This document shows, piece by piece, positions 9,275-62,559 of a stretch of DNA of 64,000 nt; position 1 is the first letter of the stretch, and each line of letters starts with the position of its first letter. Source of the DNA: Limnanthes douglasii subsp. nivea. Lineage: Eukaryota > Streptophyta > Magnoliopsida > Brassicales > Limnanthaceae. The notes beneath the pieces were generated by a model. It ran no database searches and was not told where the DNA came from. It was given only the letters and a program-made list of their open reading frames with translations. Position numbers and translations under genes: made by a program. The DNA lies in assembly GCA_036936605.1 (NCBI GenBank), contig JAUPFV010000003.1:77236273-77300272 (forward strand), read 5' to 3'.

Positions 9275-9327
9275 TCGGACAGAATATCTTTACTTGGTTT
9301 CGAATACTTGATTCAGGCACCGTCGCC

Positions 9328-9344
9328 TCCCACTGTGGTCGCCA
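9328..9344 (-). promoter_or_regulatory. Primer binding site, Tat-1
   Basis: Minus-strand TGGCGACCACAGTGGGA lies 6 nt from the LTR boundary. TGGCGACNNNNNTGGGGA-like sites complementary to tRNA-Arg are known in Tat elements (from memory). Tat-2 has the identical 17-mer at 26731-26747. Confidence 0.65.
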
Positions 9345-9350
9345 ATTTGG

Positions 9351-11352: not shown

Positions 11353-12500
11353 TTTTTTTAAAGAATAAGTATTGATGTAAACACGCTGCCTCAAGAGTGT
11401 TTCGTATGCACAACTAATACAAACGCAACGTGCCTGCCTACAATATCAAATCCAGTTAGGAAGATTAGTTTGCTCATAGTTAGAACAATCTAGATCATGA
11501 TAGAACAAATGAAAATAAGGGATCGTGGACAAGAGAAACATTTTCCATAAATCTACAACCAAATCAATGAAGACGAAACGTAGACAAAACTAATCTAATG
11601 AAGATGAAACATAGACAAAACTAATTCAATGAAGATAAATATTTTAGACAATACAATGATGCATACATACCATTTGGTTTGATCGAATTAATGAAGCAGT
11701 TTCTACAAAAAAAACAAAAAAAAAAGGTAGATTTTGTTTAAAGAGAGTTTAGTGTTTCGCTTATGGCGAGAACCAATAAGAAATGCTTATAAGATTACAC
11801 GTAATGAACAAGGTATTTAGGGAATTAATGGGTCTTCAATGGTAAATATTTGACTAAAACGGACTTCCTTATAGAAATATAAAAATATGGATCTTAAGTA
11901 GATAATAATTAGGATTTTCGGTCTTAAATGGTACTCAACCCTATAAAGAAACACTTGAATAAACAAATCTTATGAATTTTTGGGTAATATTTTTTTTTGA
12001 GTTTGTTTAGAATTAATTTATAAACCAAATTTTGTTTTCAAACATATATCATAAATGTTCACACCTATAAATTTTGTTATATTGATACTTTTATTTTTAA
12101 AATTTATTTAAAAACTTTTTTTTAATTATTTTGTATTTCTAGAATTAATCAATACAATTTAGATATATTATTAAATATTTAAATGGCTACTTTATAGTTT
12201 TGTTTAATATTTAAAATCTGTTGAAAAGTAAATATTTATGTTTACCAACTATTGCGAAATAGTTTTTTTTTTTTTAAAAAAAACCACCTTAATGTTTTAA
12301 TAATATTGCATATTAGTCTTTTTCCTGTGATTAACCGGATTTAAAACTACAATTTTGTTGAAAAATGAAAAACTATTTGGTGACATTGGATAAATATGAG
12401 GATTATTTGGTGACATTTGATAAATACAGAGAGACGATTATTAAAATATTAGAGATGATTTTGATGCAAAAGTGAGCATGAAAGACTATTGCGTGACAAT
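11353..12500. other. AT-rich intergenic DNA, nothing recognised
   Basis: Homopolymer-rich A/T sequence up to the copia LTR. A few short tandem words (GACGAAACGTAGACAAAACTAAT near 11570-11625) repeat twice. No gene, RNA or element end was recognised. Confidence 0.5.
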
Positions 12501-15783: not shown

Positions 15784-15883
15784 NNNNNNNNNNNNNNNNN
15801 NNNNNNNNNNNNNNNNNNNNNNNNNNNNNNNNNNNNNNNNNNNNNNNNNNNNNNNNNNNNNNNNNNNNNNNNNNNNNNNNNNN
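15784..15883. other. Assembly gap of exactly 100 N
   Basis: Exactly 100 Ns, the customary placeholder for a gap of unknown size. The sequence changes from copia reverse transcriptase to unrelated CT-rich DNA across it, so the true distance and even the adjacency are uncertain. Confidence 0.98.
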
Positions 15884-20497: not shown

Positions 20498-21044
20498 AAT
20501 TTTTAACTATCTTTTTATTTTTCTTTAATTTTTGTGTTAGACTAAATTCCTTGGATGACCAAGCCATTTTTGTAACCGTGTCCGGCTCTTGTTCGGATAA
20601 ACCCTTTCTTTTAAAACTTCAAATTCCTTGGATGGCCAAGGCACTTTACATATTTTAATATCACTCCCCGGTGTTAGCCGGGAAATTTTATCTTACACAA
20701 TCCTTGCATTGTCTTATAGTTACCTAATTTTGATGGCTAATGTTTAAATAGCCCTTAGTTATTTTACAAGAATTTTAAGGTGAATGTGTTTAAATTCTCC
20801 GATGACAAATGTTTAAATGGTTATCATTCTACTAATTCAATCCGGTCTGCCAATAATACTTTAATTCTTTTTAAAGAAGCCATTAATCGAAACACTTCGA
20901 ATTTTTCAAGAAGGCAACAAATTTTATTAAAAAGCACGGACACCTCATTAAAACCTCCCCGCGCCACCAGGGTAGGAAAGAGTATGCCCCCAAATATTTA
21001 CATGGACTTTAAATAAGTAAATATTTGTATAATTTTATTCTAGA
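20498..21044. repeat. Tat-2 spacer between convergent genes
   Basis: Carries the motif AATTCCTTGGATGACCAAG at 20545 and AATTCCTTGGATGGCCAAGG at 20632, 87 bp apart, as in Tat-1. The block CCTCCCCGCGCCACCAGGG followed by GTATGCCCCCAAATATT (20955-21000) is the most conserved non-coding part between the two elements. Confidence 0.6.
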
Positions 21045-24000: not shown

Positions 24001-24320
24001 ATGACATCAGCTTTCTCATTAGAAAAATATCTCCTCCTTTGTACAACTGGTGTTATATCTCTTCGGATGGATAGCTGGTATCATATGATACTTGCAGGCA
24101 CTCCGGTCACATCAGCATTGCACCAAGCAAAAACATGCTGATGGTTTGTTAAAAAAGACAACATTTTACTCTTTAGTTCCGATGTCATCTTAGATCCGAT
24201 CTTGACATTTGTTCCTTCAGCCAGAGAGTGAGTTTCAACTTCTTCAATTGGTATTAAAACACCAGGGGTCTCTCTGGGGTCATCAATTTCACCCTCCCCC
24301 CCAGAAGGCCCCTCAAATTG
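21045..24320 (-). pseudogene. pol: Tat-2 pol (reverse transcriptase, RNase H pair, integrase)
   Basis: The same domain order as Tat-1, broken by stops and frameshifts into pieces: integrase C-terminus 21179-21442, integrase core 21629-22027 (with DLVGPLPMA changed to VLVGPLPMA, losing the first catalytic Asp, and TTDNGPQFD kept), zinc finger 22034-22231, second RNase H 22361-22993 (TDGGSSTMG, SDSQLL kept), and reverse transcriptase 23242-23972 (YIDEMM in place of YIDDMM, so the second catalytic Asp is lost). Non-functional. Confidence 0.9.
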
Positions 24321-24323
24321 CTA
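24321..24323 (-). promoter_or_regulatory. In-frame UAG between protease and reverse transcriptase (Tat-2)
   Basis: Minus-strand context AAT TAG CAA TTT GAG, at the codon equivalent to the Tat-1 UAG. The flanking protein aligns without gaps on both sides (RECYA...stop...QFEG in Tat-1). Confidence 0.5.
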
Positions 24324-26723
24324 ATTCTCACTGATCCAAACTGCCTCCAAAGTTTGAGGGGCCAATATTATTGCATAACACTCCCTTGCTACCTTTTGAC
24401 TACTTCGGACAACTCCCACTTGTCCTTGCACAACGTATTTTAAACATTGGTGGACTGTTTAAGCCACAACATGCATCCTGGAGAGCCAAGATCTCCCCAA
24501 AATGGCATTGTAACATGTGGGATAATCCACCACAAAGAAAAGTATTCTGACCATTTTCTTAAAAGGGCCTTTTCCCATAGAAACCTCATCTTCAAACTCC
24601 CCAATTACATCAGCTGAGCTTCCAGTGAAACCCACTATTGACCTGTTCGAACGCTGAATCACTGTCGGATTCTTCATTTATTTATAAGAAGTTAAAATGA
24701 GAATATTGGCTGAATTTCCGGTGTCCACCAAAATTCGTCTAATGTCATTGCCCCCAATGGATGCTCCTATCACAACTGCATCTTCATGGGGACCATCTAT
24801 GTCCCTCAAGTCATCTTCATCGAAAACAATGAAAGAAAAAGGAATTTGTGATTGATAGGAAGTCATACTTCCTTCCAGTTGGGTAGCTAGAGTATCAACA
24901 TGCCTCTTTCTCAAATAAGCAGTTGGTGCAGTCATGGTATCTCCCCCAAATATTGTAAGTGACTCAAAAAAACTAATGAGTCCGGGCACCGTCTTCCAAT
25001 GTTCTGTAATAACGTCCACCTTATTCCGGGTTGGATCAGGATCCAAATATTCTGACTCCACATCAAACCTTTCAATTATCACCATAGCCCCATCCGGAGT
25101 CGATGTCCCTACATTGTTTGGGCCTGTTCGATGAGCATTATCAGACCTGTTTCCACTTATTCTTTTAACATAAGCCCCCAACTTTCCTCTTTCGATCAAA
25201 TTTTTCACCTCTTGCTTCAAAGCGATGTAATACTCTGTGTTATGACCAATATCTTTATGGTATAGGCAGAAACAATTATTACGACTTTGCCTGGGAGATT
25301 GAAGCGCAACTGGCTTCCTAAAGTGTACTTTATCTTTGGTTTTATCATAGATGGTTTCCACATTTTCTTTCAGCTCGGCAAACCACTCCGGTTGAACCCA
25401 AGGCCCTCGCTTATTTCTAGATTGTTCTCTGAGCTGGTGCTGGGTGGGATTGAGCCTTGGCTTTGCAGGGACCTTGTCCGACTTCTTTAGCCTTATACCC
25501 GGATTGATTCTGATTCGGTGCAGCTGGGGCCGATCTCACCTGCCTATGCACCCTGGTCTTCTTTGTTTCATTTACATTGATTTGTTTCCCAACCTGATTC
25601 AGTTACCACCCCACGTCATGGCCTTCTTTCTGGTTATCGAATCATCCAAATTGCCAGGGTTCAAACCCTGCCTCAGAGAAGCTGTTGCTACTTGTTCAAA
25701 GTAATCAGCTAATCCATTCTTGGTGTTCACAAAGCGACTTATATATTCTTTCAAGGATTCATTTGGCTCTTGGGCAAAATGGATGATAGTGTCTACATTG
25801 CCCTTTACTTCTTTACTTCCAATGAACTGCCTCCGGAAGGCCACCCAAAAAGTATCAAAATTTCTGATGCAGCCCTGTGGCAGACTATTGTACCACTTCA
25901 GAGCACTCCCCGTAAAAGACTGGGAGAACGCTCGACAAAGTAACTTATCATCATCATCAAAATTCATCATAAATTTTTTGAATTGCTCCAGATGGTTATC
26001 TGGATCTTTACTCCCATCGTATTTTTCCATCTTTGTGCTGTCAAACCTCTTAGGAAGGTTTCCGAACAGTATCTTGGAAGACAATGGAGATTGTCTCCAA
26101 TTCCGGCCACGACTAAACACAGTATCTTCATTGGGAGTTGCAAAGATACTTGGTTCATCATGAAAGGCAAAAGGATCCATCAACAATCGGTCTACATGTC
26201 TCCGGCCCTGGCTGTGACCATGAGATGAACATTTTCCTAGATGCCTTTTCAACTTTCCATGCATGTCCCTCTTTCTTGAATATTTTTTAACCGACTTCTA
26301 CTTCTTTTTACAACGACCTTCATCGCTGCTGGATGACAGGGACTCCTCCAGTCCATCTTCGTTCGAGGAGCTACTAGAGGATTCTGAATCTGAATCTGAT
26401 CTCTCCACCAGTTTAGACCGGTGAGACTTCTTAGAGCTAGCATGAGTCTTTTTAGTACTTACATGGGTTTTTGCTGATGGGTTATGCTCCCTAGGATTGT
26501 GAGTGTAGTGAACGGCTGACACTTTTGATTTTTCTTTTAAACCCATCTCCACCCTTTTAGCAGCCCTCAAGACTTCTATCTCAGCTTTCAATCTATCTTG
26601 CTCTTCAATTGTGTATTCGTCATTTTCTCCCACCACTTCTGCCAAAGTTGGTGGTACTGTCTGCTCGTCCGGATTCATCCGAACTCGCCTTTCGTGATGG
26701 TTTTGAATGCTAAATTCGGGCAC
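24324..26723 (-). pseudogene. gag: Tat-2 gag and protease
   Basis: gag starts near 26723-26680 (MNPDEQTVPP), with the coiled coil, Ser/Asp linker and capsid domain (KRFDSTKMEKYDGSKDPDNH, SFTGSALKWYNSLP). Frame breaks occur at about 26299, 25600 and 25400. The C-terminal knuckle-like segment (CLYHKDIGHNTEYY) and protease (RRILVDTGNSANIL; NS where Tat-1 has SS) are continuous to 24678, where a TAA interrupts; the rest of protease (VGFTGSSADVIGEF, ILGRSWL) follows in frame to the stop at 24321, with another stop near 24460. Confidence 0.85.
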
Positions 26724-26730
26724 CTTCTTC

Positions 26731-26747
26731 TCCCACTGTGGTCGCCA
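26731..26747 (-). promoter_or_regulatory. Primer binding site, Tat-2
   Basis: The same 17-mer as in Tat-1 (minus TGGCGACCACAGTGGGA), 6 nt inside the LTR boundary. Confidence 0.65.
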
Positions 26748-26753
26748 ATTTGG

Positions 26754-27126
26754 TGTGGATTATTTTCGACTGAGGGTAATTTTGTCAAGTGGTTGAATGT
26801 GTTTCAAAGGAATTTAATGTTTGGGTATTTTGTAGTGAGAGATTAGAGCTGTCTGGTTGTATTAAATGTTCATTACCCTCGTTAATGAAAGTGGTTGGGT
26901 ATTTATACCCTTATTTATGGGCCACATGGGCTTTCGAGTCATACTTATGAAACCGGGTCGAGTTCAAAAACCCATTAGTTTATTAAGTAGATTAGCAACT
27001 ATCTTAGTCAAAAAGTGATTAGCTTTTAATACTTTAGTCCAGTTCGGATGGTTCAGTGGGTGTTTTTTGTCTGAATTGCCCCTGTCTGGTTTCTATAGTG
27101 AGTGGTAAAAACTTCCGGACTCATCA
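26754..27126 (-). repeat. Right (5') LTR of Tat-2
   Basis: TGTGGATTATTTTCG to TCCGGACTCATCA. Minus-strand TATA box TATAAATA at 26900-26907, lying inside the short palindrome GGGTATTTATACCC (26897-26910). About 8% divergent from the left LTR. Confidence 0.92.
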
Positions 27127-38300: not shown

Positions 38301-39106
38301 CAAATCTTAGAAAATTTCTTATTTCCGAAATGAGAGCAAAATATAAGTCTGAATAGACTTCATTTCCATTTTTTATTCATCTAAAGTGAAAATCGGCCAT
38401 CTAAACTTTAAAAAGGAACACAATTCTAAATTCTGTACGCGTAGAATTTGACTTAGATTTAATTTAAAGTTATTTAAGATTGTTTTTGTTTATGATTTGT
38501 TCAATTTTGACGGTTATTTGGCTCTTAGCTGACCAATAATCGTTATCATTCGTAATTATTGTTCACTACAAAATAGTTTCCCGTCAAATCATAATAGTGA
38601 CGAAAATACTTTATTTTACATTGAATTATAGTCGGCTTTTGATACATTTGTATAAAATTATTTATGTCCGCCAAAATCTGTTGAAATCATTTTTCATATA
38701 AACCAAAACGCTAATGATCAAAAATAAAAAATTAATTTTTTTAAGAACAAATTAAATCAACTAAACACTATAAAAATTAAAATATTTATAAATTAATGGG
38801 TGGGAAATACAGTTATGTTGGAATTGAAAAAAGTAAAAAAAATTGATGGCACACTAAATGTGTGGGTGTGGTCCATGTGGAGCACATGAGCATGTGATCG
38901 ATAGGGGCCATAGGGCCACAACCCAATCCCTGTCCCCTGACAAAAGTCAATATTTTCTGTGTTCGAACAGGTTATAACTTATACTAAAACCACACCATCT
39001 ATGTGTCCGATACGTACCTTGTTTCCAATAATATATACTTGTTCTTTTGGTAATAGAATAATATATTTTTGTTTAAACTTATTATAACTTTATTATATAT
39101 ATATAT
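35301..39106. other. 3.8 kb without a recognisable gene or element
   Basis: The first ~2.5 kb has intermediate base composition and may be further Tat-3 debris; a stretch around 37156 (TTGGCGCTGACAATAGTAG) looks like a gypsy primer binding site but has no partner structure. 37900-39100 is plain AT-rich DNA ending in a short (TA)n. No frame longer than 60 codons and no recognisable domain. Confidence 0.4.
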
Positions 39107-39532
39107 GGCTTTGAACAGTACATCGTCCTTCGACTATCGCATTTGGTGGCAGATAGTCTCTTGACTTTCAAATGTCCGTTGACGGTCCCTGGACTATTGC
39201 GTTTGGATAAAGTTAGTCCACCAAATCCTCTGATCCATGAGAGGCTGCCATCTGTCACCATAGTCCCCAGATTTTTGTATCACCACTAGTCCCTCGAGTT
39301 TAGTTATCCGTAATATTCTACATTTTGGGTTTGACCTAAACTCAAGAGACTAATGGTGATACAAAAATATGGGGACTATGGTGACAGGTGGCAGCCTCTC
39401 ATGGATCAAAGGATCTGGTGGACTAACTTTATCCAAACGCGATAGTCCAGGGACTGTCAACGGACATTTGAAAGTCAAGAGACTATCTGCCACCAAACGC
39501 GATAGTCGAGGGACGATGTACTGTTCAATACC
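39107..39532. mobile_element. Foldback MITE copy 1, Mutator type, 426 bp
   Basis: Two 196-bp inverted arms (39107-39302 and 39337-39532) around a 34-nt loop, nearly perfect along their whole length. Ends are GGCTTTGAACAGTAC and, on the right, GTACTGTTCAATACC. Flanked on both sides by (TA)n with TTATATATAT, so the target duplication cannot be sized here; copy 2 shows 10 bp. The element has no coding capacity and would form one long hairpin if transcribed. Confidence 0.9.
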
Positions 39533-39620
39533 TTATATATATATATAAAAATAACTATCGGTTGGGTTTAGATATTGTTTTGGATCGAATTTTGTTACAT
39601 TAACTAATTATTATAAATTA

Positions 39621-40046
39621 GGCATTGAACAGTGAATCGTCTTTCGACTATCGCGTTTGGTGGCATATAGTCCTTTGACTTTCAAATGTCCGTTGACAGT
39701 CCCTGGACTCTCGCGTTTGGATAAAGTTAGTCCACCAGATCCTCTGATCTATGAGAGGCTGCCACCTGTCACCATAGTCCCTAGATTTTTATATCACCAC
39801 TAGTCCCTTGAGTTTAGGTCAAACCCAAAATGTAGATTATTACAGAAAACTAAACTCAAAGGACTAATGGTGATACAAAAATCTGGGGACTATGGTGACA
39901 GGTGGCAGCCTCTCATGAATCAGAGGATCTGGTGGACTAACTTTATCCAAACGCGATAGTCCAGGGACTACCAACGGACATTTGAAAGTCAAAGGACTAT
40001 TTGTCACCAAACGCGATAGTCGAGGGACGATGTACTATTCAAAGCC
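39621..40046. mobile_element. Foldback MITE copy 2, Mutator type, 426 bp
   Basis: The same length and design as copy 1: arms 39621-39816 and 39851-40046, loop 39817-39850. The loop matches the reverse complement of the copy 1 loop, so the copies are in opposite orientation. A perfect 10-bp duplication TTATAAATTA flanks it (39611-39620 and 40047-40056). A 9-11 bp duplication is the signature of the Mutator superfamily (established knowledge). Confidence 0.93.
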
Positions 40047-40056
40047 TTATAAATTA

Positions 40057-43181: not shown

Positions 43182-43186
43182 GGTAA

Positions 43187-43494
43187 TGATGTAGGCGGAA
43201 GGCATCTGCAAAATAATATTTAAATATTTTATAATATTTAAATGTTTTAGTTTTAGTTTAATTTTATTTTTATATTTTAAGGACCTATTTAAGATATCAA
43301 ATTAAATCTGATTACATTCAGATTTAATATGATATTATTTTATTGCGTTTACTTTTGTTTCCATATTTTGTATTAGGGATTTGAGCGATTCTTATTTAAG
43401 GTGCCTCAAACCCTACTTTGATGGGGAGTTGTTTTGATTAATAAAATTAAGGTTTATACCTTTTTTAGCTTCTCTTGCGTTTCACTCTGAATCA
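43187..43494 (+). repeat. 5' LTR of the chimeric element
   Basis: TGATGTAGGCGG to CTGAATCA. TATA-like TATTTAAGG at 43393-43401. Related in layout to the LTRs of the short elements at 41 and 63 kb (TGATGTA start, CTTATATAAAG/CTTATTTAAGG box, GCCTCA), so probably the same broad family. Confidence 0.95.
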
Positions 43495-43497
43495 TAG

Positions 43498-43507
43498 TGG
43501 TATCAGA
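43498..43507 (+). promoter_or_regulatory. Primer binding site, chimeric element
   Basis: TGGTATCAGA, matching initiator tRNA-Met for ten bases, three bases after the LTR. Confidence 0.85.
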
Positions 43508-43525
43508 CACAGGAAATCCTGCGAG

Positions 43526-44098
43526 ATGGTGCGAGGAAGAACCAGCGGTCGCGTTGGCGCTGCAGTGACTAGAGATACAAGTGATTTCGGTGATCGTGAA
43601 GTTGCTGACCTACGCCGTCAGGTGGCTGATCTTACCCGTCAGATGGCTGATCTTAACGCCAGGCAAGAAGTTGCTGACCTACGCCGTCAGGTGGCTGATC
43701 TTACCCGTCAGATGGCTGATCTTAACGCCAGGCAACAAGGCACGGAGGTTGAAGGTATCGATAACCCTTTTGGGGAGGGGTTCGAACATAATACTTGTCA
43801 CGGCCGCCGCTGGGAGCTTGGATTTAAGGGAGACATCCCGGACTTTGATGGTGACATAGAAGGTTCGCCGATATTCGACCATCCACTCTTTGATGAGTAT
43901 GAGGCTGACAACGAAGGTGAAATTTCTGATGAAACTTGGTCGGAATTAGGAGATCCGATTTATGATGTATACGACGATGAGGATGAAGACGATTGGATAA
44001 CACCAAAAAACGTCTCATGTTCTTTCGATAAGGTAAACAATAATTCTTTCTCTAATCCTACAAAAAAAAAAGTTATGGGATTAAAAATAACGATTTAA
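43526..44098 (+). pseudogene. gag N-terminal remnant of the chimeric element
   Basis: Starts MVRGRTSGRVGAA at ATG 43526. It has a heptad-rich coiled coil in which 69 bp (23 codons, 43599-43667 and 43668-43736) are duplicated in tandem without a difference, then RRWELGFKGDIPDF, the usual entry to a gypsy capsid domain. The capsid domain itself is missing: the frame jumps to an acidic linker (DPIYDVYDDEDEDDW) of the kind that normally lies just before protease. It is the only retroviral coding sequence left in the element. Confidence 0.7.
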
Positions 44099-44379
44099 AA
44101 CCTTCGCAAAAATTAAAAATTTTAAAACCAAATTTTGGTCCAAAAGAACAAACAAAAAATTTGAAATCAAATTGTCCATCAATCATGGATTAATTTGGAA
44201 ATTTTTTACAACTGTCTTTACCACCACTCAAACCACCTGAAATTTCATCAAATAGAAGGTGTATTGTGAGACGACAGCCTCATACTATTTCAGAGACCAA
44301 TTTCCTTGATGCAATGGATAGTTTGACGAGACCCCTCTCTCACCAACTGCGGCATCAGGTTGATATGTCGAAGTTAGAA

Positions 44380-44523
44380 GACTTCAACGAGTTCATATGC
44401 AGAAAACTTGGTGCTAGTGGCCTTGATAACAACGAGTTCCTCTGCCGAAAACTCGTTCATATTTACACTTGGTGCGACTCCGTCGAAGATGCACGCAAGA
44501 CGTTCAATGAAATGTCCGAAAGA
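44380..44523 (+). pseudogene. Captured fragment of a PPR protein
   Basis: DNNEFLCRKLVHIYTWCDSVEDARKTF matches one pentatricopeptide repeat (shown by LVHIYTWCDSVEDARKTFNE at 44452-44511). The words NEFICRKL and NEFLCRKL occur 15 codons apart, a small internal duplication. The reading frame opens at 44266 with about 38 codons that I do not recognise. PPR proteins bind organellar RNA; one repeat alone would not. Confidence 0.6.
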
Positions 44524-44526
44524 GCT

Positions 44527-44610
44527 GGCAAACAAATTCTATCTGCGGATGCATCGCAATTTGATATCATTATAATTGAAGCTGCCACGAACAAGTTTTC
44601 TGATAGTATT
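44527..44610 (+). pseudogene. Captured fragment of a cysteine-rich receptor-like kinase
   Basis: QFDIIIIEAATNKFSDS is the conserved juxtamembrane start of CRK/DUF26-type kinase domains (usually QFDFSTIEAATNKFSD followed by the Gly-rich loop). Only about 28 codons are present, in the same frame as the preceding PPR piece, and the kinase domain is absent. Confidence 0.6.
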
Positions 44611-44718
44611 GAGTAAAGGGATGGTGGATCTGCATCAGTGACATCTTCTATAGATACTGCACACACTATGATTTTCTCACAATTGAGTACTTCTGATCAA
44701 GGTGAGCGAAGCCTTCAG

Positions 44719-45084
44719 ATGATATTATTGGGCGTCCATTCTGCTGATCGGATTCTTGAACTTCTATATTTGGGAAATAGGCGAAGGAAAACCGAGAGCA
44801 CAGAGGCTAAGGCAACCTCCTCAAGATCACATGCCGTTCTAGAGATTATTGTAAAAAGAAGATACAAGAACCAAAATCAAGTACGGCGAGGAAAACTTGC
44901 ACTTGTAGACCTTGCTGGGAGCGAAAGAGCAGCAGACACAAATAACAGGGAGAAGAAACTGAGAGATGGAGTTAATATTAATCGTTCTCTTCTTGCCTTA
45001 GCTAACTGCATTAATACTTTGGGTAAACAACAGAAGAAGGCTCTTGCTTATACCCCATACCGTAATAGCAAACTGACTCGTATT
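44719..45084 (+). pseudogene. Captured fragment of a kinesin-8 motor domain
   Basis: About 122 codons of motor domain: switch [10 protein letters not shown], switch [10 protein letters not shown], and [18 protein letters not shown] with YRNSKLTR. The ATP-binding P-loop and the neck are absent, so it cannot be a motor. The piece is open, with no intron. Kinesin-8 assignment rests on the [14 protein letters not shown] and RRKTESTEA words, from memory. It joins the next fragment directly after KLTRI. Confidence 0.85.
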
Positions 45085-45096
45085 TTCGTTATCTCG

Positions 45097-45375
45097 GATA
45101 TCAAACAGGATCTTGGTTATGTAGGAACATCAGGGCATAAGTCTTGGAGAAATATATGTCGGAGATTGAAAGAAGCTTGCATAGTTGAAGAGTTTGCTTC
45201 CATAGTAGATGAAAAGTTTGAGATCTGCCTTCGTTTGTTAAAGAGAATTACTGAAAAGGATTTTGAGATCATTGGATCTGGTTGTCACTTTAACAAAGAG
45301 AAGCACCTTTCATTTGGTAGGAGGATTAAAAAACTGATGAGTTCGCGGAGCTTTCATTAGATCGTCAAATATATG
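45097..45375 (+). pseudogene. Captured fragment resembling the B-block-binding subunit of TFIIIC
   Basis: [20 protein letters not shown] and [20 protein letters not shown], then after a one-base frameshift near 45330 [15 protein letters not shown]. The order and wording resemble the large TFIIIC subunit of plants (RNA polymerase III initiation), including a TDQ.VELP..HQIYD-like end. Recognised from memory, so moderate confidence. Confidence 0.5.
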
Positions 45376-45638
45376 AGCGTGGTCTTTGTATCATACTGAT
45401 TGATGAACATATGGAAATGAATACATTGAAGGACATGATTTTGGGTAAACCAGCTCCTTTAGTTAGTACTTTCAGGCTGAGTTACTATTCAATTCTGAAT
45501 TTGACGAGTCGTGCGGAAGGACAATTCACTGCTGAACATGTTTTAAGGAATTCATTCCAACAATTCCAGTATGAAAAGACCCTGCCGGATGCTGCACAGA
45601 AAGTTTTAAAGCTGGAAGAGGAAGCACCCATGCTTGAT
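45376..45638 (+). pseudogene. Captured fragment of an MTR4/HEN2-type RNA helicase
   Basis: RGLCIILIDEHMEMNTLKDM, GKPAPLVSTFRLSYYSILNL and SRAEGQFTAEHVLRNSFQQF are the conserved post-helicase (ratchet/winged-helix) region of MTR4, HEN2 and SKI2-family exosome helicases; no helicase motifs I-VI are present. About 88 codons, without intron. It opens the 509-codon fused frame at ATG 45411. Confidence 0.88.
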
Positions 45639-46940
45639 GTAGGTTTGGGTTTCAAGAAATCACAGGCTTCTGCTATCACACGCTATTGCAGGTTTTTGAT
45701 GTTTGGTTTTGAGGAGAACGAGTTTATTTTGCAACTTGAAAGTCTTCATTGCTTTAGCTACCTATCTTCGCTGCGAGATAATAAATGGTTCGTTGATTTT
45801 TTAGCTGAGTTTTCTTTTATTCTTGTTCCATTGTCTAGTGAGAACCAAGATGTTAGATTTGCTGCTATGGGTTGTGTTAAAGGGTTGCAAACTCTACGTC
45901 AACGTGTTGACTTCTCTCGTACAAAAAATGCACATACTGCTGTTTGGAGTTTTTTTTTGTATGATCTTCTGGTCTTAATTGTTCAAACTAGCCACCTCGT
46001 GTTGTCAGTTAAATTTGTGTCGCAGGCTTCCCTCGGAGCTGTTGGCATAGGCCTCGCATTTGGTATTGCATCTGTTTTCTGTCTTGGGTTTATATTTAAC
46101 GACACAGTAATAGAGGTTTCGCTGACACTAGCTGTGAGCTATGTGGCGTACTTCGCCGCACAAGAAATTATTCAGGTATCTGGTGTTCTGACTGTGATGA
46201 CTTTAGGACTGTTTTATGCAGCAGTTGGTAGGACAGCCTTTAAGGGTGATAGTCAACTAAGTTTGCATCATTTTTGGGAAATGGTTGCTTATATTGCTAA
46301 TACATTAATTATTATCTTAAGTGGTGTGGTTATAGCTGAAGGTGTTCTTGGCAGTCATGGTGTATTTAACCATGGGAATTCATGGAGTCTCTTATTTCTT
46401 CACTACTCTTTTGTGCTACTGTCTCGCGGTGTTGTGGTTGGAATTCTGTTTCCATTTTTACGTTATTTTGGATATGGTTTGGACTGGAAGGAATCTATAA
46501 TCCTCATGTGGTCGGGGTTGAGAGGGGCTGTGGCGCTATCACTGTCACTATCTGTCAAGCAATCAAGTACCACTTCAGTGCACCTAAGTCCTGAGACAGG
46601 AACATTGTTTGTTTTCTTCACTGGTGGAATCGTGTTCTTGACTCTGATTATTAATGGATCTACTACACAGTTCATGTTACGTCTTCTACATTTGGATAAC
46701 TTATCAGTTACTAAGAAGTGTATATTGGACTACACAAAGTATGACATGTTAAACAAAGCATTAGAGGCTTTTCAAGTTCTTGGAGATGATGAGGAACTAG
46801 GACCTGCTGATTGGCCCACTGTTAAGAGATATATTGCAAGTTTGAATAATATAGAGGTTAAGGCGGTACGTCCGTGTGCTGTCTTGATTGGGCGTCGTTT
46901 TGAATTCGAGGTCGAATTCTTCCCAACCGGGAAAGGATGA
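45411..46940 (+). CDS. Fused 509-codon open frame: helicase piece, UTP10-like piece, SOS1 piece
   Basis: One uninterrupted frame joins residues 1-76 (MTR4/HEN2-type), about 88-200 (UTP10/HEATR1-like) and 205-482 (SOS1 antiporter), then a 27-residue tail read from the retrotransposon 3' end. An open frame across three unrelated sources by chance is unlikely unless the joins were in frame or were selected. The LTR promoter could transcribe it, but several ATGs and the gag frame lie upstream, so translation is doubtful. It would be a membrane protein with several SOS1 transmembrane helices. Whether it is expressed is unknown. Confidence 0.6.
   Translation: MEMNTLKDMILGKPAPLVSTFRLSYYSILNLTSRAEGQFTAEHVLRNSFQQFQYEKTLPDAAQKVLKLEEEAPMLDVGLGFKKSQASAITRYCRFLMFGFEENEFILQLESLHCFSYLSSLRDNKWFVDFLAEFSFILVPLSSENQDVRFAAMGCVKGLQTLRQRVDFSRTKNAHTAVWSFFLYDLLVLIVQTSHLVLSVKFVSQASLGAVGIGLAFGIASVFCLGFIFNDTVIEVSLTLAVSYVAYFAAQEIIQVSGVLTVMTLGLFYAAVGRTAFKGDSQLSLHHFWEMVAYIANTLIIILSGVVIAEGVLGSHGVFNHGNSWSLLFLHYSFVLLSRGVVVGILFPFLRYFGYGLDWKESIILMWSGLRGAVALSLSLSVKQSSTTSVHLSPETGTLFVFFTGGIVFLTLIINGSTTQFMLRLLHLDNLSVTKKCILDYTKYDMLNKALEAFQVLGDDEELGPADWPTVKRYIASLNNIEVKAVRPCAVLIGRRFEFEVEFFPTGKG
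45672..46007 (+). pseudogene. Captured fragment resembling UTP10/HEATR1 (BP28)
   Basis: SLHCFSYLSSLRDNKWFVDF, VPLSSENQDVRFAAMGCVKG and LQTLRQRVDFSRTKNA have the wording of the HEAT-repeat U3 snoRNP protein UTP10 as I remember it from plants. Part of the 509-codon fused frame. Function in its source: pre-rRNA processing. The preceding dozen codons are unassigned. Confidence 0.5.
46023..46856 (+). pseudogene. SOS1: Captured fragment of the SOS1 Na+/H+ antiporter (NHX7 type)
   Basis: About 278 codons matching the second half of the SOS1 membrane domain and the start of the cytosolic tail: SLGAVGIGLAFGIASV, SLHHFWEMVAYIANTLI, WSGLRGAVALSLSLSVK, ETGTLFVFFTGGIVFLTLI, LGDDEELGPADWPTVKRYI. It spans several exons of the plant gene yet has no intron, which indicates copying from spliced RNA. 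The N-terminal half and the regulatory tail are absent, so it cannot be a complete antiporter. It ends 81 bp before the right LTR. Confidence 0.93.
46929..46937 (+). promoter_or_regulatory. Polypurine tract of the chimeric element
   Basis: GGGAAAGGA directly before the right LTR; the short element at 41 kb has GGGAAGGA at the same place. Confidence 0.75.
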
Positions 46941-47245
46941 TGTAGGCGGAAGGCATCTGCAAAATAATATTTAAATATTTTATAATATTTAAATGTTTTA
47001 GTTTTAGTTTAATTTTATTTTTATATTTTAAGGACCTATTTAAGATATCAAATTAAATCTGATTACATTCAGATTTAATATGATATTATTTTATTGCGTT
47101 TACTTTTGTTTCCATATTTTGTATTAGGGATTTAAGCGATTCTTATTTAAGGTGCCTCAAACCCTACTTTGATGGGGAGTTGTTTTGATTAATAAAATTA
47201 GGGTTTATCCCTCTTTTAGCTTCTCTTGCGTTTCACTCTGAATCA
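46938..47245 (+). repeat. 3' LTR of the chimeric element
   Basis: Identical in length to the 5' LTR with four substitutions, all in the last third. Followed by the target duplication GGTAA (47246-47250). Confidence 0.95.
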
Positions 47246-47250
47246 GGTAA

Positions 47251-53880: not shown

Positions 53881-54943
53881 GTTAGTGTTAGGGGTGTCAA
53901 ACGGTTTGAACCGCGAACCATTGGAACCGTTTAAATCCGAACCACGGTTTGCGGTCTTGCCGGGTTGCGGTCATGTCGGTTTACTTTTTATGTGGTCCTG
54001 CCGGTTTGCGGTCCTAATGGGCTAGTTTCGCAGTTAAGCCAAATTCAAACCACCAGACAAACCATTTAGGAACCGTTTATAAAAATATTTTATAATGTTA
54101 TTTAAAATTAATTTGTAAGTGTTAATTGAATCTAATTTCAATAATTGAGATATGTACCATATAAATGAGTTAATTATGCTATTTCATGTATTTTAATTTA
54201 AATATGTTATCATTTTAATTGAAATTTTATAATCAAGCAATTACATTCTAAAAATAATAATTTTAATTTGATTTTCAAATGTTTGATTATATTTATATAT
54301 TTAAGATATTTTATTTAATATTAGGTACATATTAAATAAAATATATACATCTAATTGTATTTTGATTACAACTTTCAATATTTGTAAAAATATAAAAATA
54401 AAAATTTGATTGTCTTAAACAAGATATCGTAAACAATATAATTGTAAAATGATTTGTGTATTGTTTGTATTTAAGATGTTATATTTAATATTAGGTACAT
54501 ATTAAATAATATATACCTATTAGACATATAATTGTATTCTGATTTTAAATTATTAAGTGATTGTTTAGATTCTTTCAAGCTTGAAGTGTTTATGGTTAGA
54601 TGAATTATATAGTTTATTGTATTTTCGAACTATTCAATATTAGAAGTTTAAATTTAAATTTTTTAGAATTGTATAATTGTATGCATAAACTTAAATTACT
54701 TGTAAATAACAAAATAAAAATTGAAAGTGAAAGTTATTTAAATAAAATTTAATAAAAAAAGAAGCAAAACAAACACTTCTTGAAACATAGTTGTTAAAAG
54801 AAAATTAATAAAATTTCTAAAAAAAAACAAAAAAGTCAAAAGTTCTAATATTTTATTAAATTTAAAAATATGGCCCGAATTTTCAGTCCGGACGTCCGGA
54901 GATTTGTCCGGATTTATTTTTTTCGTTTTTAAAATTTTTTGTT

Positions 54944-54971
54944 GGGTCTCCTCTATAAATAGAGGAGACCC
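54944..54971 (+). promoter_or_regulatory. TATA box inside a perfect 12-bp inverted repeat
   Basis: GGGTCTCCTCTA - TAAA - TAGAGGAGACCC: the TATAAATA core occupies the loop and inner stem of a perfect hairpin. CT-rich leader-like sequence (CTCTCTATGTCTCTCTAAATC) follows, as in many plant 5' leaders. Probably the relic promoter of the lost transposase gene. Just upstream lies a perfect palindrome TCCGGACGTCCGGA (54887-54900). Confidence 0.6.
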
Positions 54972-55544
54972 CAAATCCAAACTCATAAATTCATATACTC
55001 CTCTCTATGTCTCTCTAAATCTCTCTACTTGTTCTAAATATTCTAGAAAAATCAAATTTCTTATTTTACATATTGTAGTCTTACTTTCCGAATTGTTTGA
55101 TTTTTTTTTCGTAAATTGTTTCTATTTGATAAAAACACTTAAATAACGTTGGGATAACATTATAATAGCTCATTTAAGAGTTTCATATAATTTATTAAGT
55201 TATTTAATTGTTATAGTAATTTAAATTAGTTCTTTTAATTCTAATTTTATTAGTTGTTGTTAGTTGTTATTGCTTGTTATTAGTTGATATTAGTTGGTAT
55301 TAGTCTAAATTTAGTTTTTATTATTTGCGATATTAATTAGTTTCGATTAGTATTTTATTGCATATTTAAAAAAAAACGTTGTTTTAAGTTTTAAAATGCC
55401 TATAAATCGTAGACTTACTAATACTCACCAATCCGCTAATTTTCACTTGTTATGAATGATGTTTCTGATAACCAAAACAAATTAATACTAACCAAAATGT
55501 AATAATAATTTTATAATCATTATTAAAATTACAATAATAAAATT

Positions 55545-56105
55545 CAAAACTTAATATTAAAATTATAACAATATAACTTGTAATCTTTTACCATGATAAA
55601 ATATGATTTTGGTTTAAAAAATAATAAATAACATTTGTAATATTTAAAACCAAATCACAATAATAATATTCAAAATGTAATATTAAAATTATAACAATAT
55701 AACTTAAAAATAATAAATAACACTTGTAATATTTGAAACCAAATCACAATAATAAAATTTAAAATGTAATATTAAAATTTTAACAATATAACTTAAAAAT
55801 AATAAATAACACTTGTAATATTTGAAACCAAATCACAATAATAAAATTTAAAATGTAATATTAAAATTATAACAATATAACTTAAAAATAATAAATAACA
55901 CTTTAATATTTAAAACCTAATCACAATAATAAAATTCAAAATGTCATATTAAAATTATAACAATATAACTTGTAATATTTTTGCATGATAAAATATGATT
56001 TTGGTTTAAACTATAATAAATAACACTTGTAATATTTAAAACCAAATCACAATAATAAAATTTAAAATGTAATATTAAAATTATAACCATAAAATTTGTA
56101 ATATT
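55545..56105. repeat. ~89-bp AT-rich tandem repeat in hAT element A
   Basis: The unit starting TAATATTAAAATTATAAC and containing AATAATAAATAACACTTGTAA recurs with an 88-90 bp spacing in the middle (about 55679, 55767, 55856, 55946) and longer spacing at the edges. The same units in reverse orientation appear in element B (57185-57510 and 59005-59340). Confidence 0.8.
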
Positions 56106-56637
56106 TTAACATGATAAGATATACTTTTGGTTTGTAATATTAAAATCAACACTACTAATATTAGATCTAAAAACATAATAATAATATTCAAAATATGATA
56201 ATATTTAAAATTTTGGACTATATAATAGTTAAAACACTTAAAATATTAATAACCAAAACAAATTAATACTAACCAAAATGTAATAATAATTTTATAATAA
56301 TATGCAATATCTCAATATTTTTTAAATATAACATTTTGGTTATAAAATAAATAAAACATTTATAATATTTACAAATAAACCGCAGTTTTTTACAAATAAA
56401 CCGTGGTTTCGCAGTCCAGCGGTTTGCAGTCCTAATGGTTTGTGGTCCTGCCGGTTTACTCCTTCTGTGGTCCTGCCGGTTTGCGGTCCTAATGGTTTAC
56501 GGTCCTGCCGGTTTGCGGTCCTGCCGGTTTGCAGTCCTAATGGGCCAGTTTCGTAGTTAAACCGCCAGTCATAAACAGATTGCCAGCTTTGAACCGCGGT
56601 TCTTGAACCATTTGCCACCCCTAGTTAGTGTTATTAC

Positions 56638-59600
56638 TAGAGGTGGCAAATGGTTCAGGAACCGCGGTTCAAAGCTGGCAATCTGTTTATGAACTCGCGG
56701 TTTAACTGTGAAACTGACCCATTAGGACTGCAAACCGCAAGGACCGCAAACCGTTAGGACCGCAAACCGGTAGGACCGTATAAGGAGTAAACCGGCAGGA
56801 CCGCAAACCATTAGGACTGCAAACCGCCAGGACTGCGAAACCACGGTTTATTTGTAAAAAACCGCGGTTTATTTGTAAATATTATAAATGTTTTATTTAT
56901 TTTATAACCAAAATCATATGTTAAGTTATATTTAAAAATATTGAGATATTGCATATTATTATAAAATTATTATTACATTTTGGTTAGTATGAATTTGTTT
57001 TGGTTATTAATATTTTAAGTGTTGTAATTATTATATAGTCCAAAATTTTAAATATTACTTATGTTATTATCACATTTTGAATACTATTATTATGTTTTTG
57101 GATCTAATATTAGTAGTGTTGATACTATGTTACAAACCAAAACTATATCTTATCATGTTAAAATATTACAAATTCTATTGTTATAATTTTAATATTACAT
57201 TTTGAATTTTATTATTGTGATTTGGTTTTAAATATACCAAGTGTTATTTATTATTTTTAAGTTATATGGTTATAATTTTAATATTACATTTTGAATTTTA
57301 TTATTGTGATTTGGTTTTAAATATAACAAGTGTTATTTATTATTTTTAAGTTATATTGTTATAATTTTAATATTACATTTTGAATTTTATTATTGTGATT
57401 TGGTTTTAAATATTACAAGTGTTATTTATTATGTTTTAAACCAAAATCATATTTTATCATGCTAAAATTTTACAAGTTATATTGTTATAATTTTAATATT
57501 ACATTTTGAATTTTATTATTGTAATTTTAATAATGATTATAAAATTATTATTACATTTTGGTTAGTATTAATTTGTTTTGGTTATCACAAACATCATTCA
57601 TAACAAGTGAAAATTAGCGGGTGGGTGAGCATTAGTAAGTCTACGTTTTAGAGGCATTTTAAAACTTAAAACAACGTTTTTTTTTAAATATGCAATAAAA
57701 TATTAATCGAAACTAATTAATATCGCAAATAATAAAAACTAAATTTAGACTAATACCAACTAATATCAACTAATAACAAGCAATAACAACTAATAACAAC
57801 TAATAAAATTAGAATTAAAAGAACTAATTCAAATAACTATAACAAGTAAATAACTTGATAAATTATACGAAGCTCTTAATTGAGCTATTATAATGTTATC
57901 CCAACGTTATATAAGTGTTTCTATCAAATAGAAATAATTTGCGGAAAAAAAATCAAACAATTCTGAAAGTAGAACTACAATATGTAAAATAAGAAATTTG
58001 AGTTTTCTAGAATATTTAGAACAAGTAAAGAAATTTAGAGAGATATAGGGAGGAGTATATGAGTTTGAAAAAATAAAAAAAAACGAAAAAAAATTGTCCG
58101 GACCATCCGGATGTAATTTTCGGATACCCCGGACACCTCACGGCTAGTTTTATTTAACTAGCCATTTGTCCGGATGCCCCGGAACCTCATGATTTCCAAT
58201 GTAATGCTCGTTCTCATAGTCTTTATAACAATATAACTATGTAAATATGACTTGTAAATTGTAATGCTTTGTAAATTGTAATCACCCATATTTCTTGCTT
58301 TTATGATAGAGTAGTGGATTATTTAATAACAATATTTTATTAGTAATTAAATTGTAATGCTTTGATTTTATTTTATTACTAATAAAATATAAAACTAGTT
58401 TTTTCCGTGGTGGATTCAAACTTTCTATAGATCGATTTTAGCCTTTTTACTATTATACATTTCATCTTTTATTTTTTTTTACTATTAAAATCACAATTTT
58501 TGGATTTTAGTTATATTACTGAAAGTTTAAATTTTATTTGAATTTTGTAAAATTATTTACGATTATATAATTTACGATATCTTGTTTAAAACAATCAAAT
58601 TATTATTTTTATAATCTAAAAAATATTTTAAATAATATTGAAAATTGTAATCAAAATACAATTAGATGTATATATTTTATTTAATATCTACCTAATATTA
58701 AATAAAATATCTTAAATACATAAATATAATCAAAATTATTATGTTAAGTTATATTTAAAAATATTGAGATATTGCATATTATTATAAAATTATTATTACA
58801 TTTTGGTTAGTATGAATTTGTTTTGGTTATTAATATTTTAAGTGTTGTAATTATTATATAGTCCAAAATTTTAAATATTACTTAGGTTATTATCACATTT
58901 TGAATACTATTATTATGTTTTTGGATCTAATATTAGTAGTGTTGATACTATGTTACAAACCAAAACTATATCTTATCATGTTAAAATATTACAAATTCTA
59001 TGGTTATAATTTTAATATTACATTTTGAATTTTATTATTGTGATTTGGTTTTAAATATACCAAGTGTTATTTATTATTTTTAAGTTATATGGTTATAATT
59101 TTAATATTACATTTTGAATTTTATTATTGTGATTTGGTTTTAAATATAACAAGTGTTATTTATTATTTTTAAGTTATATTGTTATAATTTTAATATTACA
59201 TTTTGAATTTTATTATTGTGATTTGGTTTTAAATATTACAAGTGTTATTTATTATATTTTAAACCAAAATCATATTTTATCATGCTAAAATATTACAAGT
59301 TATATTGTTATAATTTTAATATTACATTTTGAATTTTATTATTGTAATTTTAATAATGATTATAAAATTATTATTACATTTTGGTTAGTATTAATTTGTT
59401 TTGGTTATCACAAACATCATTCATAACAAGTGAAAATCAGCGGGTGGGTGAGCATTAGTAAGTCTACGTTTTAGAGGCATTTTAAAACTTAAAACAACGT
59501 TTTTTTTAAATATGCAATAAAATATTAATCGAAACTAATTAATATCGCAAATAATAAAAACTAAATTTAGACTAATACCAACTAATATCAACTAATAACA

Positions 59601-60984
59601 AGCAATAACAACTAATAACAACTAATAAAATTAGAATTAAAAGAACTAATTCAAATAACTATAACAAGTAAATAACTTGATAAATTATACGAAGCTCTTA
59701 ATTGAGCTATTATAATGTTATCCCAACGTTATATAAGTGTTTCTATCAAATAGAAATAATTTGCGGAAAAAAAATCAAACAATTCTGAAAGTAGAACTAC
59801 AATATGTAAAATAAGAAATTTGAGTTTTCTAGAATATTTAGAACAAGTAAAGAAATTTAGAGAGATATAGGGAGGAGTATATGAGTTTGAAAAAATAAAA
59901 AAAACGAAAAAAAATTGTCCGGACCATCCGGATGTAATTTTCGGATACCCCGGACACCTCACGACTAGTTTTATTTAACTAGCCATTTGTCCGGATGCCC
60001 CGGAACCTCATGATTTCCAATGTAATGCTCGTTCTCATAGTCTTTATAACAATATAACTATGTAAATATGACTTGTAAATTGTAATGCTTTGTAAATTGT
60101 AATCACCCATATTTCTTGCTTTTATGATAGAGTAGTGGATTATTTAATAACAATATTTTATTAGTAATTAAATTGTAATGCTTTGATTTTATTTTATTAC
60201 TAATAAAATATAAAACTAGTTTTTTCCGTGGTGGATTCAAACTTTCTATAGATCGATTTTAGCCTTTTTACTATTATACATTTCATCTTTTATTTTTTTT
60301 ACTATTAAAATCACAATTTTTGGATTTTAGTTATATTACTGAAAGTTTAAATTTTATTTGAATTTTGTAAAATTATTTACGATTATATAATTTACGATAT
60401 CTTGTTTAAAACAATCAAATTATTATTTTTATAATCTAAAAAATATTTTAAATAATATTGAAAATTGTAATCAAAATACAATTAGATGTATATATTTTAT
60501 TTAATATCTACCTAATATTAAATAAAATATCTTAAATACATAAATATAATCAAAATTATATAATGATACGATTATATCAAAATTAAAATACAATTATTTT
60601 TTTAGAATGTAATTTCTTTATTATAGAATTTCGATTAAAATGATAACATATTTAAATTAAAATACATTAAATAGCATAATTAACTCGTATATATGCTACA
60701 TATCTCAATTATTGAAATTAGATTCAATTAACACTTACAAATTAATTTTAAATAACATTATAAAATATTTTAATAAACGGTGGTTTGAACTGGCGGTTTA
60801 ACTGCGAAACTGGCCCATTAGAACTGCAAACCGGCAGCACCGTATAAGGAGTAAACCGGTAGAACCGCAAACCGGCAAAACTGCAACCGCAAACCGATAG
60901 GACCGCAACCCGCCAGGACCGCAAACCGTGGTTCTGATTTAAACGATTCTGATGGTTCGCGGTTCAAATAGTTTGACACCCCTA
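56638..60984. mobile_element. Non-autonomous hAT element B (4,347 bp), inverted relative to A
   Basis: Starts TAGAGGTGGCAAATGG and ends TTTGACACCCCTA, flanked by a perfect 8-bp duplication GTTATTAC (56630-56637 and 60985-60992). Its left end resembles the right end of A, its right end the left end of A, and the interior is the reverse complement of A. Subterminal GGACCGCAAACCG words lie at 56700-56860 and 60790-60940. The duplications of A and B overlap by two bases (GT at 56630-56631). No transposase frame. Contains a 1.8-kb tandem duplication; without it B would be about 2.5 kb, close to A. Confidence 0.92.
56919..60558. repeat. Tandem direct duplication of ~1,820 bp inside hAT element B
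   Basis: 56919-58740 and 58741 to about 60558 both begin ATGTTAAGTTATATTTAAAA and run in register to CATAAATATAATCAAAATTAT. The copies differ at only a handful of bases and homopolymer lengths by eye (for example TTACTTATG/TTACTTAGG, CTATTG/CTATGG). Either a very recent duplication or an assembly artefact. Confidence 0.9.
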
Positions 60985-60992
60985 GTTATTAC

Positions 60993-62559
60993 CCTACTGG
61001 TCCTTCGGAGTGGCAGGTGTTTTAGTCCTTTTACCCGGGTTCAAAGTGCCTTCCAATTCTTTCTCAATATTAGTTTATATTCATCTTGTCATCTAAAATC
61101 ACCCAAATATTTTTATTCACTCTCATCCAAATTTTAAACTCATCTAAAATGGAAATAATTTATTCATTTTTATGCCAAAATATATTTTTATTAGTATTAA
61201 AGTGTTTTTATTTTTTTTCATCTCTACAAGGATAAAAAATCATAAATCTTATATATATTTTTTACTTTCTTTCTACACTTTTTGAGCTCTTTAAAATCCG
61301 GCCACCAAAATTCAGGTGTGTTTTTAGGTTAGGTTTTAGTGGTTTGGATTGTTTGATGCGTGAATTTGATGTGTTATATTTAAGGATTAAATTTAGGGTC
61401 AAATTTAAGAGTTTATGATGGATTGAGGAAGAAGATTTTTACTAGTTTTAGGCGCATTTTTTTCGTCAGAATCGGTTTAAAATGGCCAGCACCGATGGTG
61501 CGCAAAGCTGGCACAATCGATGCGCCATGACTGCATGTATGGGGCACAACACTTAGCACCATATGTGCAGGTGTTTTTTTAATTAGTTCCGAAAAATTAT
61601 CATTCTATTTTTTTGTTTATATATTAACATAGTGTACTTAATTGTTTATTTAGTTAATACTGTTTTTGTTTTTTTATGTATTTTAGTTATTAATAAATAT
61701 TTCGTGTTTAATTCAATACATGAGAAGTTTGTAGAAACTACACACCATTGTTTTTAATAAAAATAAAAATCTTTTACTTTTTTTTGACGATATAACCTCA
61801 TTCTCTGGCGAAAGTAGCTCCTCCATGAAAATTACGTCTTTTGGTTGAGTAATGTCTAAGCTTGTGCTTTTTAAAAAAACTTGGAAAACATTTGAAAAAC
61901 AAGTTTGAAGTTGATGAAAAAAAGTTTGAATGTTGAAGAACTACTAAACAACTTGTAAGAGCACCACAAATTATAGAAAAAAACAAGTTCAATTTCATAC
62001 TCGAAATTACTTTTCATGAGTGAGGTTAGTAAATAAGGTTGATTTTAAAAGTGGGTGAGAATGATTCACTTAGTGTTTTATTTTCATTAATGCCAGCCTC
62101 GTAGATAAATCCAATTTGGTATTCAGAAAGTCAAACCTTAGTCAAAAACGAATTTTGGGTGAGGATAAATGCGATTTGGGTGATTTTAGTCTGACCCTTT
62201 ATTATTTCCATCACTTTTATAAAGGAGAATTATTCATGATAATTGGGGATAAATTCAAAATTTCGATAATCATTCTGATTTTAAAATTTATTAAAACTCA
62301 TATACAAGATAAAATCTCTCATTAATGTTCTTTGGATATGTAAAAAAATAAAAACCTCTTTTTTGTCTGCGAACCAACTCTTTTTTAATCGAAATTCATA
62401 AATCTATTAAGTTAAAAAAATTGCAACAAACTTAAGTGAAATCTCAAATATTTCAGTATAAATCAACTACTAAATGAGATTTTCACGAATAAATTACTTT
62501 ATTTCGTCTTTAATTTTGCAATCGTTGCGTTCTTAGTTATTTTTAACCTTCAAAACTTC
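60993..62559. other. AT-rich intergenic DNA, nothing recognised
   Basis: One less AT-rich island (61480-61560, GCACCGATGGTGCGC...GCACAATCGATGCGCC) with short inverted words, but no gene, RNA fold or element end that I can support. Confidence 0.5.

Follow-up and report, generated by a model that had tools for sequence, protein, structure and literature searches.

Reshuffled, intronless host-gene pieces in a non-autonomous Ty3/gypsy family of Limnanthes douglasii, with signs of a common reading frame

How can a single retrotransposon come to carry intronless pieces of several unrelated host genes? The question is raised by an element with long terminal repeats (LTRs) at positions 43187-47245 (4059 bp) of a stretch of 64,000 nucleotides from Limnanthes douglasii subsp. 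nivea (assembly GCA_036936605.1, contig JAUPFV010000003.1, positions 77,236,273 to 77,300,272), referred to as the window. Coordinates are those of the window unless a contig is named, and all features of the element lie on the plus strand; relatives of the element are designated by L and contigs by C, the window being located on C223. Judged from genome sequence, the element very probably belongs, as a recent insertion, to a large family of non-autonomous Ty3/gypsy elements. Members of this family would have acquired their cargo by template switching onto spliced mRNA, shuffled it between element RNAs, and passed a filter for open reading frames. Neither the family nor the common reading frame appears in an initial annotation of the window, which had described a young element with fragments of six or seven host genes.

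The organisation is that of an LTR retrotransposon. Two LTRs of 308 bp (43187..43494 and 46938..47245) differ by four substitutions and are bordered by an exact target-site duplication (TSD), GGTAA, at 43182..43186 and 47246..47250. A site resembling a primer binding site (PBS), TGGTATCAGA (43498..43507), directly follows the 5' LTR, and the polypurine tract GGGAAAGGA (46929..46937) directly precedes the 3' LTR, both as read from the sequence. The PBS-like site, probably of the initiator-Met tRNA type, is present at the same position in 17 other LTR pairs, in some of them with point changes, and polypurine tracts like that of the window copy are found in most relatives with LTR pairs. The gag remnant, an open reading frame (ORF) of 190 aa (43526..44095), carries a perfect 69-bp tandem duplication (43598-43735) in its N-terminal part, which is fused to a later part of gag via an internal deletion at about 43847. 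For the gag N-terminus, no relatives were detected at an E value of 0.001 among 1138 candidates. When four frames of the window copy were compared with Pfam, a pol domain was not found, the element showing no reverse transcriptase or integrase of its own. Its kinship is apparent from relatives, with matches to Retrotrans_gag (9e-13) and, below the cut-off, to Ty3_capsid in L055, and to SH3_Tf2-1 (3e-17) in L028. By its LTRs, 5-bp TSD, PBS, polypurine tract and the gag/pol likeness of its relatives, the window element is a non-autonomous Ty3/gypsy LTR retrotransposon.

Downstream of gag, the window copy is composed of pieces resembling host genes. An open frame at 44194..44613 contains two pieces, one of PPR type (about 44413-44526) and a short, putative one resembling CRK (about 44542-44610); the latter was seen by eye only, its roughly 70 nt being below the length usable by the tools. 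The PPR piece matched a synthetic PPR protein in the PDB comparison (8.6e-16, summed over repeats), while Pfam gave no PPR match in the window frames, and its support is weaker than that of the other pieces. The PPR/CRK block was aligned to 23 other copies. It is followed by a kinesin-8 motor piece (44734..45086; kinesin motor, Pfam 7.9e-37; kinesin-8, PDB 2.3e-29), a TFIIIC (GTF3C1) piece (45083..45376; DUF7599, a part of it, Pfam 1.7e-22), a HEN2/MTR4 helicase piece (45375..45640; MTR4 stalk, Pfam 1.3e-5; MTR4, PDB 6.9e-9), a short piece of no assigned origin (45641..45729), a presumably UTP10-like piece (45730..46007), supported by a spliced match to a three-exon stretch in the own genome, and a piece of the Na+/H+ antiporter SOS1 (46008..46884; Na/H exchanger, Pfam 1.1e-22; SOS1, PDB 4.8e-130).

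Parent genes were sought by DNA searches of the own genome (1.78-Gb assembly) with the cargo of relatives, exon by exon. Exon edges were read, and for UTP10 and kinesin also short surrounding stretches. Five parents were found, dispersed over four contigs: SOS1 (C1:280254287-280261306) with ten exons in the matched stretch, UTP10 (C1:275972535-275973003) with three, HEN2/MTR4 (C334:50894380-50896012, minus strand) with six, TFIIIC (C223:167036294-167038577) with five, and kinesin-8, its exons starting from C441:179992775. All 22 introns examined (9 in SOS1, 5 in HEN2, 2 in UTP10, 4 in TFIIIC, and 2 in kinesin) are absent from the copies; the parent intron boundaries are GT-AG, with one GC-AG. 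Within the window copy itself 17 introns are missing, as judged from unbroken matches (nine of SOS1 and two each of HEN2, UTP10, TFIIIC, and kinesin), and the remaining ones fall in gene parts kept by relatives only. The cargo of L010 and L014 is 87-100% identical to the parents, depending on the exon. The SOS1 piece starts within an exon and the HEN2 and UTP10 pieces end within one, as is to be expected if a polymerase can enter or leave an mRNA at any point. A search with the cargo of L011 yielded contiguous copies only and no recognisable parent exons among the 40 scored candidates. The five tested pieces are derived from spliced, sense-strand copies of dispersed host genes. Sense orientation relative to gag and pol is described as usual for transduced genes (PMC7264820, in the passage concerned). 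Much of the initial annotation was confirmed in this way: the LTR structure was recovered with all its parts, the host pieces were recognised (clearly for kinesin-8, TFIIIC, MTR4/HEN2 and SOS1, less so for PPR, and via the spliced match for UTP10), and their plus-strand, intronless nature held for all pieces tested. The five parents lie apart rather than in one neighbouring cluster, the pieces tested contain no introns, and the two LTRs are members of a repeat family instead of unrelated repeats; none of the three findings that would have spoken against the annotation was made.

When the genome was searched with the LTR, at least 40 near-full matches, two of them the window's own, were obtained from the best 40 of 1954 candidates that were scored, and all counts are lower bounds. 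Twenty places were fetched, and 17 showed an LTR pair in the same orientation, with interiors of 2.1-4.1 kb; complete cargo copies measure about 3.3-4.8 kb. Six copies, L017, L019, L024, L026, L027, and L028, are alike in DNA and contain no recognised host cargo, and L028 bears an integrase end. The LTRs of these six are about 81 bp longer at the 5' side and start with TGATGCAGATA; matching 5-bp target duplications are found at that start in five of them (not in L027). In the cargo-bearing lines the LTR starts at a second TGATG, and the polypurine tract therefore seems to have moved.

Comparison of the interiors revealed that the cargo sets are nested and reshuffled rather than identical. Positions 1-1882 of the window interior (43495-45376) are 94.9% identical to L014, positions 1881-3443 (45375-46937) are 96.2% identical to L010. 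In a genome search with the interior, copies match the window up to 44735, 45086, 45203 or 45376 and then diverge. Three places, one of them a duplicate, carry gag and the part from 45375 on without kinesin and TFIIIC, and L036 and L055 have the PPR block in addition. The break points 44735, 45086 and 45376 are piece edges in the window copy, and genes cut there continue in relatives, kinesin in L040 and TFIIIC in L014; HEN2 begins farther upstream in L010 than in the window. The array was thus built stepwise, and the window copy is a recombinant of two older cargo lineages, one carrying kinesin and TFIIIC, the other HEN2, UTP10 and SOS1.

Further combinations are HEN2-TFIIIC in L077, CAF1B-UTP10 in L079, kinesin-glucan synthase-GH3 in L040, and sucrose synthase-trehalose phosphatase in L016. 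The tools supported the following families in other copies: TGS domain (read by eye as threonyl-tRNA synthetase), sucrose synthase, trehalose phosphatase, G6PDH, TBC, myosin, glucan synthase, GH3, BCKDH-E2, Noc2, DEAD helicase, LRR receptor, CAF1B propeller, and protein kinase. The matches to TBC, DEAD, CAF1B and protein kinase, and that to trehalose phosphatase in L011 (above in L016), are below the curated Pfam cut-offs. Together with the six of the window (PPR, kinesin, TFIIIC, HEN2, UTP10, and SOS1), 20 host families were recognised. For the captured BCKDH-E2 piece, at least 120 relatives with identities of 59-68% were listed, which come mostly from a variety of eudicot families. Pfam gave no match for frames of L012, L054, L049, L048, and L050, and in the PDB comparison the second L018 frame had no match and L012 no convincing one. 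Other pieces in relatives, presumably of midasin, sacsin, tomosyn, CYP707A and H+-ATPase, were named by eye and not used as evidence. Further intronless UTP10 and HEN2 stretches occur in other contexts in L078, L079 and L080, where no LTR of the window family was found in the 1-1.6 kb fetched (1 kb for L079), so that other elements may carry the same pieces.

In the window copy, an open frame of 536 aa (45330..46937) begins within TFIIIC, spans HEN2, UTP10 and SOS1 and extends to the polypurine tract. Frames over several pieces are also found in L054 (626 aa, from the gag start), L041 (465 aa, gag to kinesin), L036 (759 aa), L034 (729 aa), L018 (795 aa), and L012 (974 aa). Domain models of different genes share one frame in L036 (helicase, MTR4 stalk, and Na/H exchanger), L034 (kinesin and GTF3C1), L018 (TGS and GTF3C1), and likewise in L040, L016, and L077; the long frames of L054 and L012 matched no domain models.

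For a frame test independent of any choice by frame, copies were aligned and the points in their cargo at which they diverge were used; the duplicate L009, the six copies without cargo, L021 and L025 were left out. As a control, random halves were joined in random phase, and 42.7% of these were open. Among 82 joint contexts, 66 had 90 bp of open frame to either side, and in 58 of the 66 the frame stayed open across the joint (P 3e-14 against the control). In a looser, wider run including the gag end, 75 of 121 contexts were open in at least one copy, and 209 of 324 copy-level contexts were open (33.6% expected), or 209 of 242 if both halves were open (45% expected). It could be shown in part, then, that the pieces, in two copies together with gag, follow each other in one open frame more often than by chance.

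Changes within the cargo were counted as unique changes in 12 blocks, a few of which share short stretches; one block containing another was left out. Summed over the blocks, 271 synonymous changes (247 expected) and 717 nonsynonymous changes (722 expected) were found, and only 25 nonsense changes (43.9 expected). Nonsense changes are rare in the PPR/CRK block, with one among 160 unique changes (7.3 expected, P 0.0035), and absent among 140 in the TFIIIC block (5.8 expected, P 0.002). Counted copy by copy, uncorrected for shared ancestry, nonsense changes numbered 1 in PPR/CRK (15.7 expected), 2 in kinesin-TFIIIC (8.6 expected), 3 in HEN2-UTP10-SOS1 (4.5 expected), and 8 in gag (14.2 expected). 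Amino-acid changes thus look neutral, and stop-creating changes look depleted in two of the 12 blocks.

These observations would fit the following course of events. Reverse transcription would take place in particles supplied by an autonomous relative. For capture, the polymerase would jump from the element RNA to a co-packaged host mRNA, for shuffling to the RNA of another element, and the chimeric product would be inserted like a normal element. In the window copy, such a switch between the two carrier lineages may have occurred at 45373-45376, followed by insertion. Recombinants with RNA translatable over a long distance would be favoured, the others being degraded by nonsense-mediated decay or not recruited for packaging. 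For Ty1, the authors of one study suggest that translated and packaged RNA share a single pool (PMC3945221, in the passage concerned), so that packaging could plausibly be tied to translation; the alternative candidate would be nonsense-mediated decay. In its strongest form, the proposal is that the family acts as a natural ORF trap, in which spliced host pieces and older chimeras are joined at random, chiefly chimeras keeping one long frame are recopied, and translation of the RNA rather than the protein is selected; we consider the chances of this evenly balanced.

Several observations speak against a filter or the scheme as a whole. The window copy itself is split into four frames, interrupted between gag and PPR, by the stop codon at 44614, and near 45330-45357 inside TFIIIC. 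The gag frame continues into the cargo in only two of 35 cargo-bearing interiors (L041 and L054). Ten of the 12 blocks show no significant depletion of nonsense changes on their own (kinesin has 6 with 4.7 expected), and most of the distinct indels (24 of 29) are frameshifts. References were picked for openness, which lowers nonsense counts, least where copies are many. The polymerase source is a presumed autonomous partner, the evidence comes from genome sequence, and partial copies may extend past the element.

One alternative is selection on the protein: useful chimeras would be kept, as has been suggested for maize Bs1, and the common frame would not result from a filter at the RNA level. 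Frames open across several genes would be expected in this case as well. Near-neutral numbers of synonymous and nonsynonymous changes are difficult to reconcile with it, as are pairwise ratios of nonsynonymous to synonymous rates (dN/dS) of 0.57-1.01 in HEN2-UTP10-SOS1; those of the other two blocks scatter from 0.27 to 7.5 on few changes. Selection on the protein is therefore considered unlikely.

The frame pattern could also be an artefact of joint finding and clustering, because divergence points are not all true joints, joints may share ancestry, and the control is a random-half model. A stricter test was made on pairs, where one member or both must be a true joint; since one divergent member can be uninterrupted cDNA, both were required to be open. 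It still gave 24 pairs open across among 32 informative ones (out of 51), compared with 42.7% in the control (P 2e-4), although eight of the 32 fail. As models of different genes also share a frame in the six copies mentioned, an artefact appears just as improbable as protein selection.

Capture by reverse transcription might have been the first step only, and the shuffling might all have followed at the DNA level, through recombination or gene conversion between copies already inserted. Many similar copies are available for this, and L009 and L010, about 0.7 Mb apart, are not two separate insertions; their flanks are 98% and 94% alike (1500 bp each), identifying them as a single insertion duplicated with its flanks, about 690 bp of cargo, upstream of HEN2 and reaching into it, being absent from L009. 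Furthermore, four of 11 cargo-bearing LTR pairs (L012, L013, L022, and L023) have no exact 5-bp TSD. The other seven and the window copy do have one, the LTR pairs differ at 2-17 sites, and the joints connect unlike sequences with few bases in common. TTTT is shared at the kinesin/TFIIIC joint, at least GT at the kinesin start, A at UTP10/SOS1, and GA (L010) or ATGA (L036/L055) where the TFIIIC-carrying and HEN2-carrying lineages meet (45373..45376). Five other cargo joints between copies share -1 to 3 nt and one in L012, with unclear edges, -9; gag deletions share 3-5 nt and an internal deletion in L015 nine. Most joints thus have 0-5 nt in common and lie at arbitrary places, in keeping with strand transfer by a reverse transcriptase but not with homologous recombination. 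Shuffling in DNA is rated a little lower than the two preceding alternatives and seems rather doubtful.

The initial annotation had proposed serial template switching between packaged mRNAs; on this view, a single element would have collected its whole cargo by itself, within one round or a few. Spliced sense pieces, short overlaps at the joints and a young LTR pair speak for template switching, and to this extent the proposal stands. The gathering history does not, and a one-off event in the window element is rejected: partial arrays exist, and each half of the cargo, 43495-45376 and 45375-46937, occurs in other copies with other neighbours at about 4-5% divergence. Own-rounds gathering is therefore very unlikely. 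The age of about 0.5 million years given in that annotation, which depends on its assumed rate of 1.3e-8, dates the insertion alone; the cargo is older, because it is common to these divergent copies. Hardly any weight, finally, is left for capture at the DNA level, or for genomic fragments having been brought between LTRs by illegitimate recombination. Pack-MULEs and Helitrons are known to carry pieces of several genes, but with introns removed throughout this origin is rejected for the five parents, LTRs, TSD, PBS-like site and polypurine tract are present, and ten long, hand-picked antisense frames had no Pfam match, unlike the sense frames.

Elsewhere in the window, two stretches (3554-9357 and 20945-26760) are about 75% alike, and a retroelement-like frame of 1095 aa was seen by eye on the minus strand at 3645-6932. 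A tandem array, visible as overlapping self-matches, is located at 10464-11358, and an assembly gap of 100 N at 15784-15883. At 39099-40054 there is a large inverted repeat, in which 962 bp match their reverse complement at 87%. Complex direct and inverted repeats fill 53900-61000, among them a pair of 1.8-kb repeats (56903-58739 and 58725-60559) that are 99.3% alike.

In the passages available, accounts of host genes captured by LTR elements either deal with an individual case, Bs1 being an example, or give the number of such genes. A single genome here preserves source genes, captured pieces, truncations and reshuffled descendants, so that one can read in which order capture took place, where the joints lie and what became of the chimeras. 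If the frame rule is true, it would provide a reason at the RNA level for many in-frame chimeric proteins without selection on the protein, which bears on the origin of chimeric genes; if the family acts as an ORF trap, the genome would be seeded with in-frame fusions of many host genes.

Among known systems, Pack-MULEs and Helitrons form chimeras of host gene fragments (PMC13317346, PMC4717578); as far as described, Pack-MULE captures hold exons and introns (PMC4717578) and have no LTRs. The window element belongs to neither group, the pieces of five parents being intronless and enclosed by LTRs. Template-switch composites in Triticeae (VejuL, BARE2) arose by recombination of co-packaged element RNAs and have a single TSD (PMC1950507); according to the passage they contain element sequences only, in contrast to the captured host mRNAs of the window family. 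Host genes within LTR elements were likewise reported in large numbers for rice and sorghum, where annotated genes were counted (PMC3726574), and for pepper (PMC5664825). The passages concerned contain no many-piece chains or reading frame. Terminal-repeat retrotransposons in miniature (TRIMs) are very short elements without coding capacity, and the window element, with 4059 bp, a gag remnant and a 536-aa frame, is not one of them. A TRIM of soybean, GmaRetroS15, is nevertheless similar in being an LTR element with intronless exon fragments of three host genes and 5-bp TSDs (PMC4717578). Gene-carrying TRIMs are given there as 1172-1449 bp long (PMC4717578), compared with about 3.3-4.8 kb, a gag remnant and long open frames in the window family. 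In the open-licence papers covered by the search, no family with reshuffled arrays and a frame rule was found. Maize Bs1, like the window family, is an LTR element in which host genes are represented by exons only; its pieces come from three genes and form a chimeric gene (PMC13317346, PMC4717578, PMC7264820, in the passages concerned). It differs from the window family, in which about 20 host families are recognised, reshuffled, and accompanied by partial arrays. Gene capture by LTR elements is therefore already known from Bs1 and GmaRetroS15; its scale in the window family and the frame rule appear, against the literature searched, to be new.

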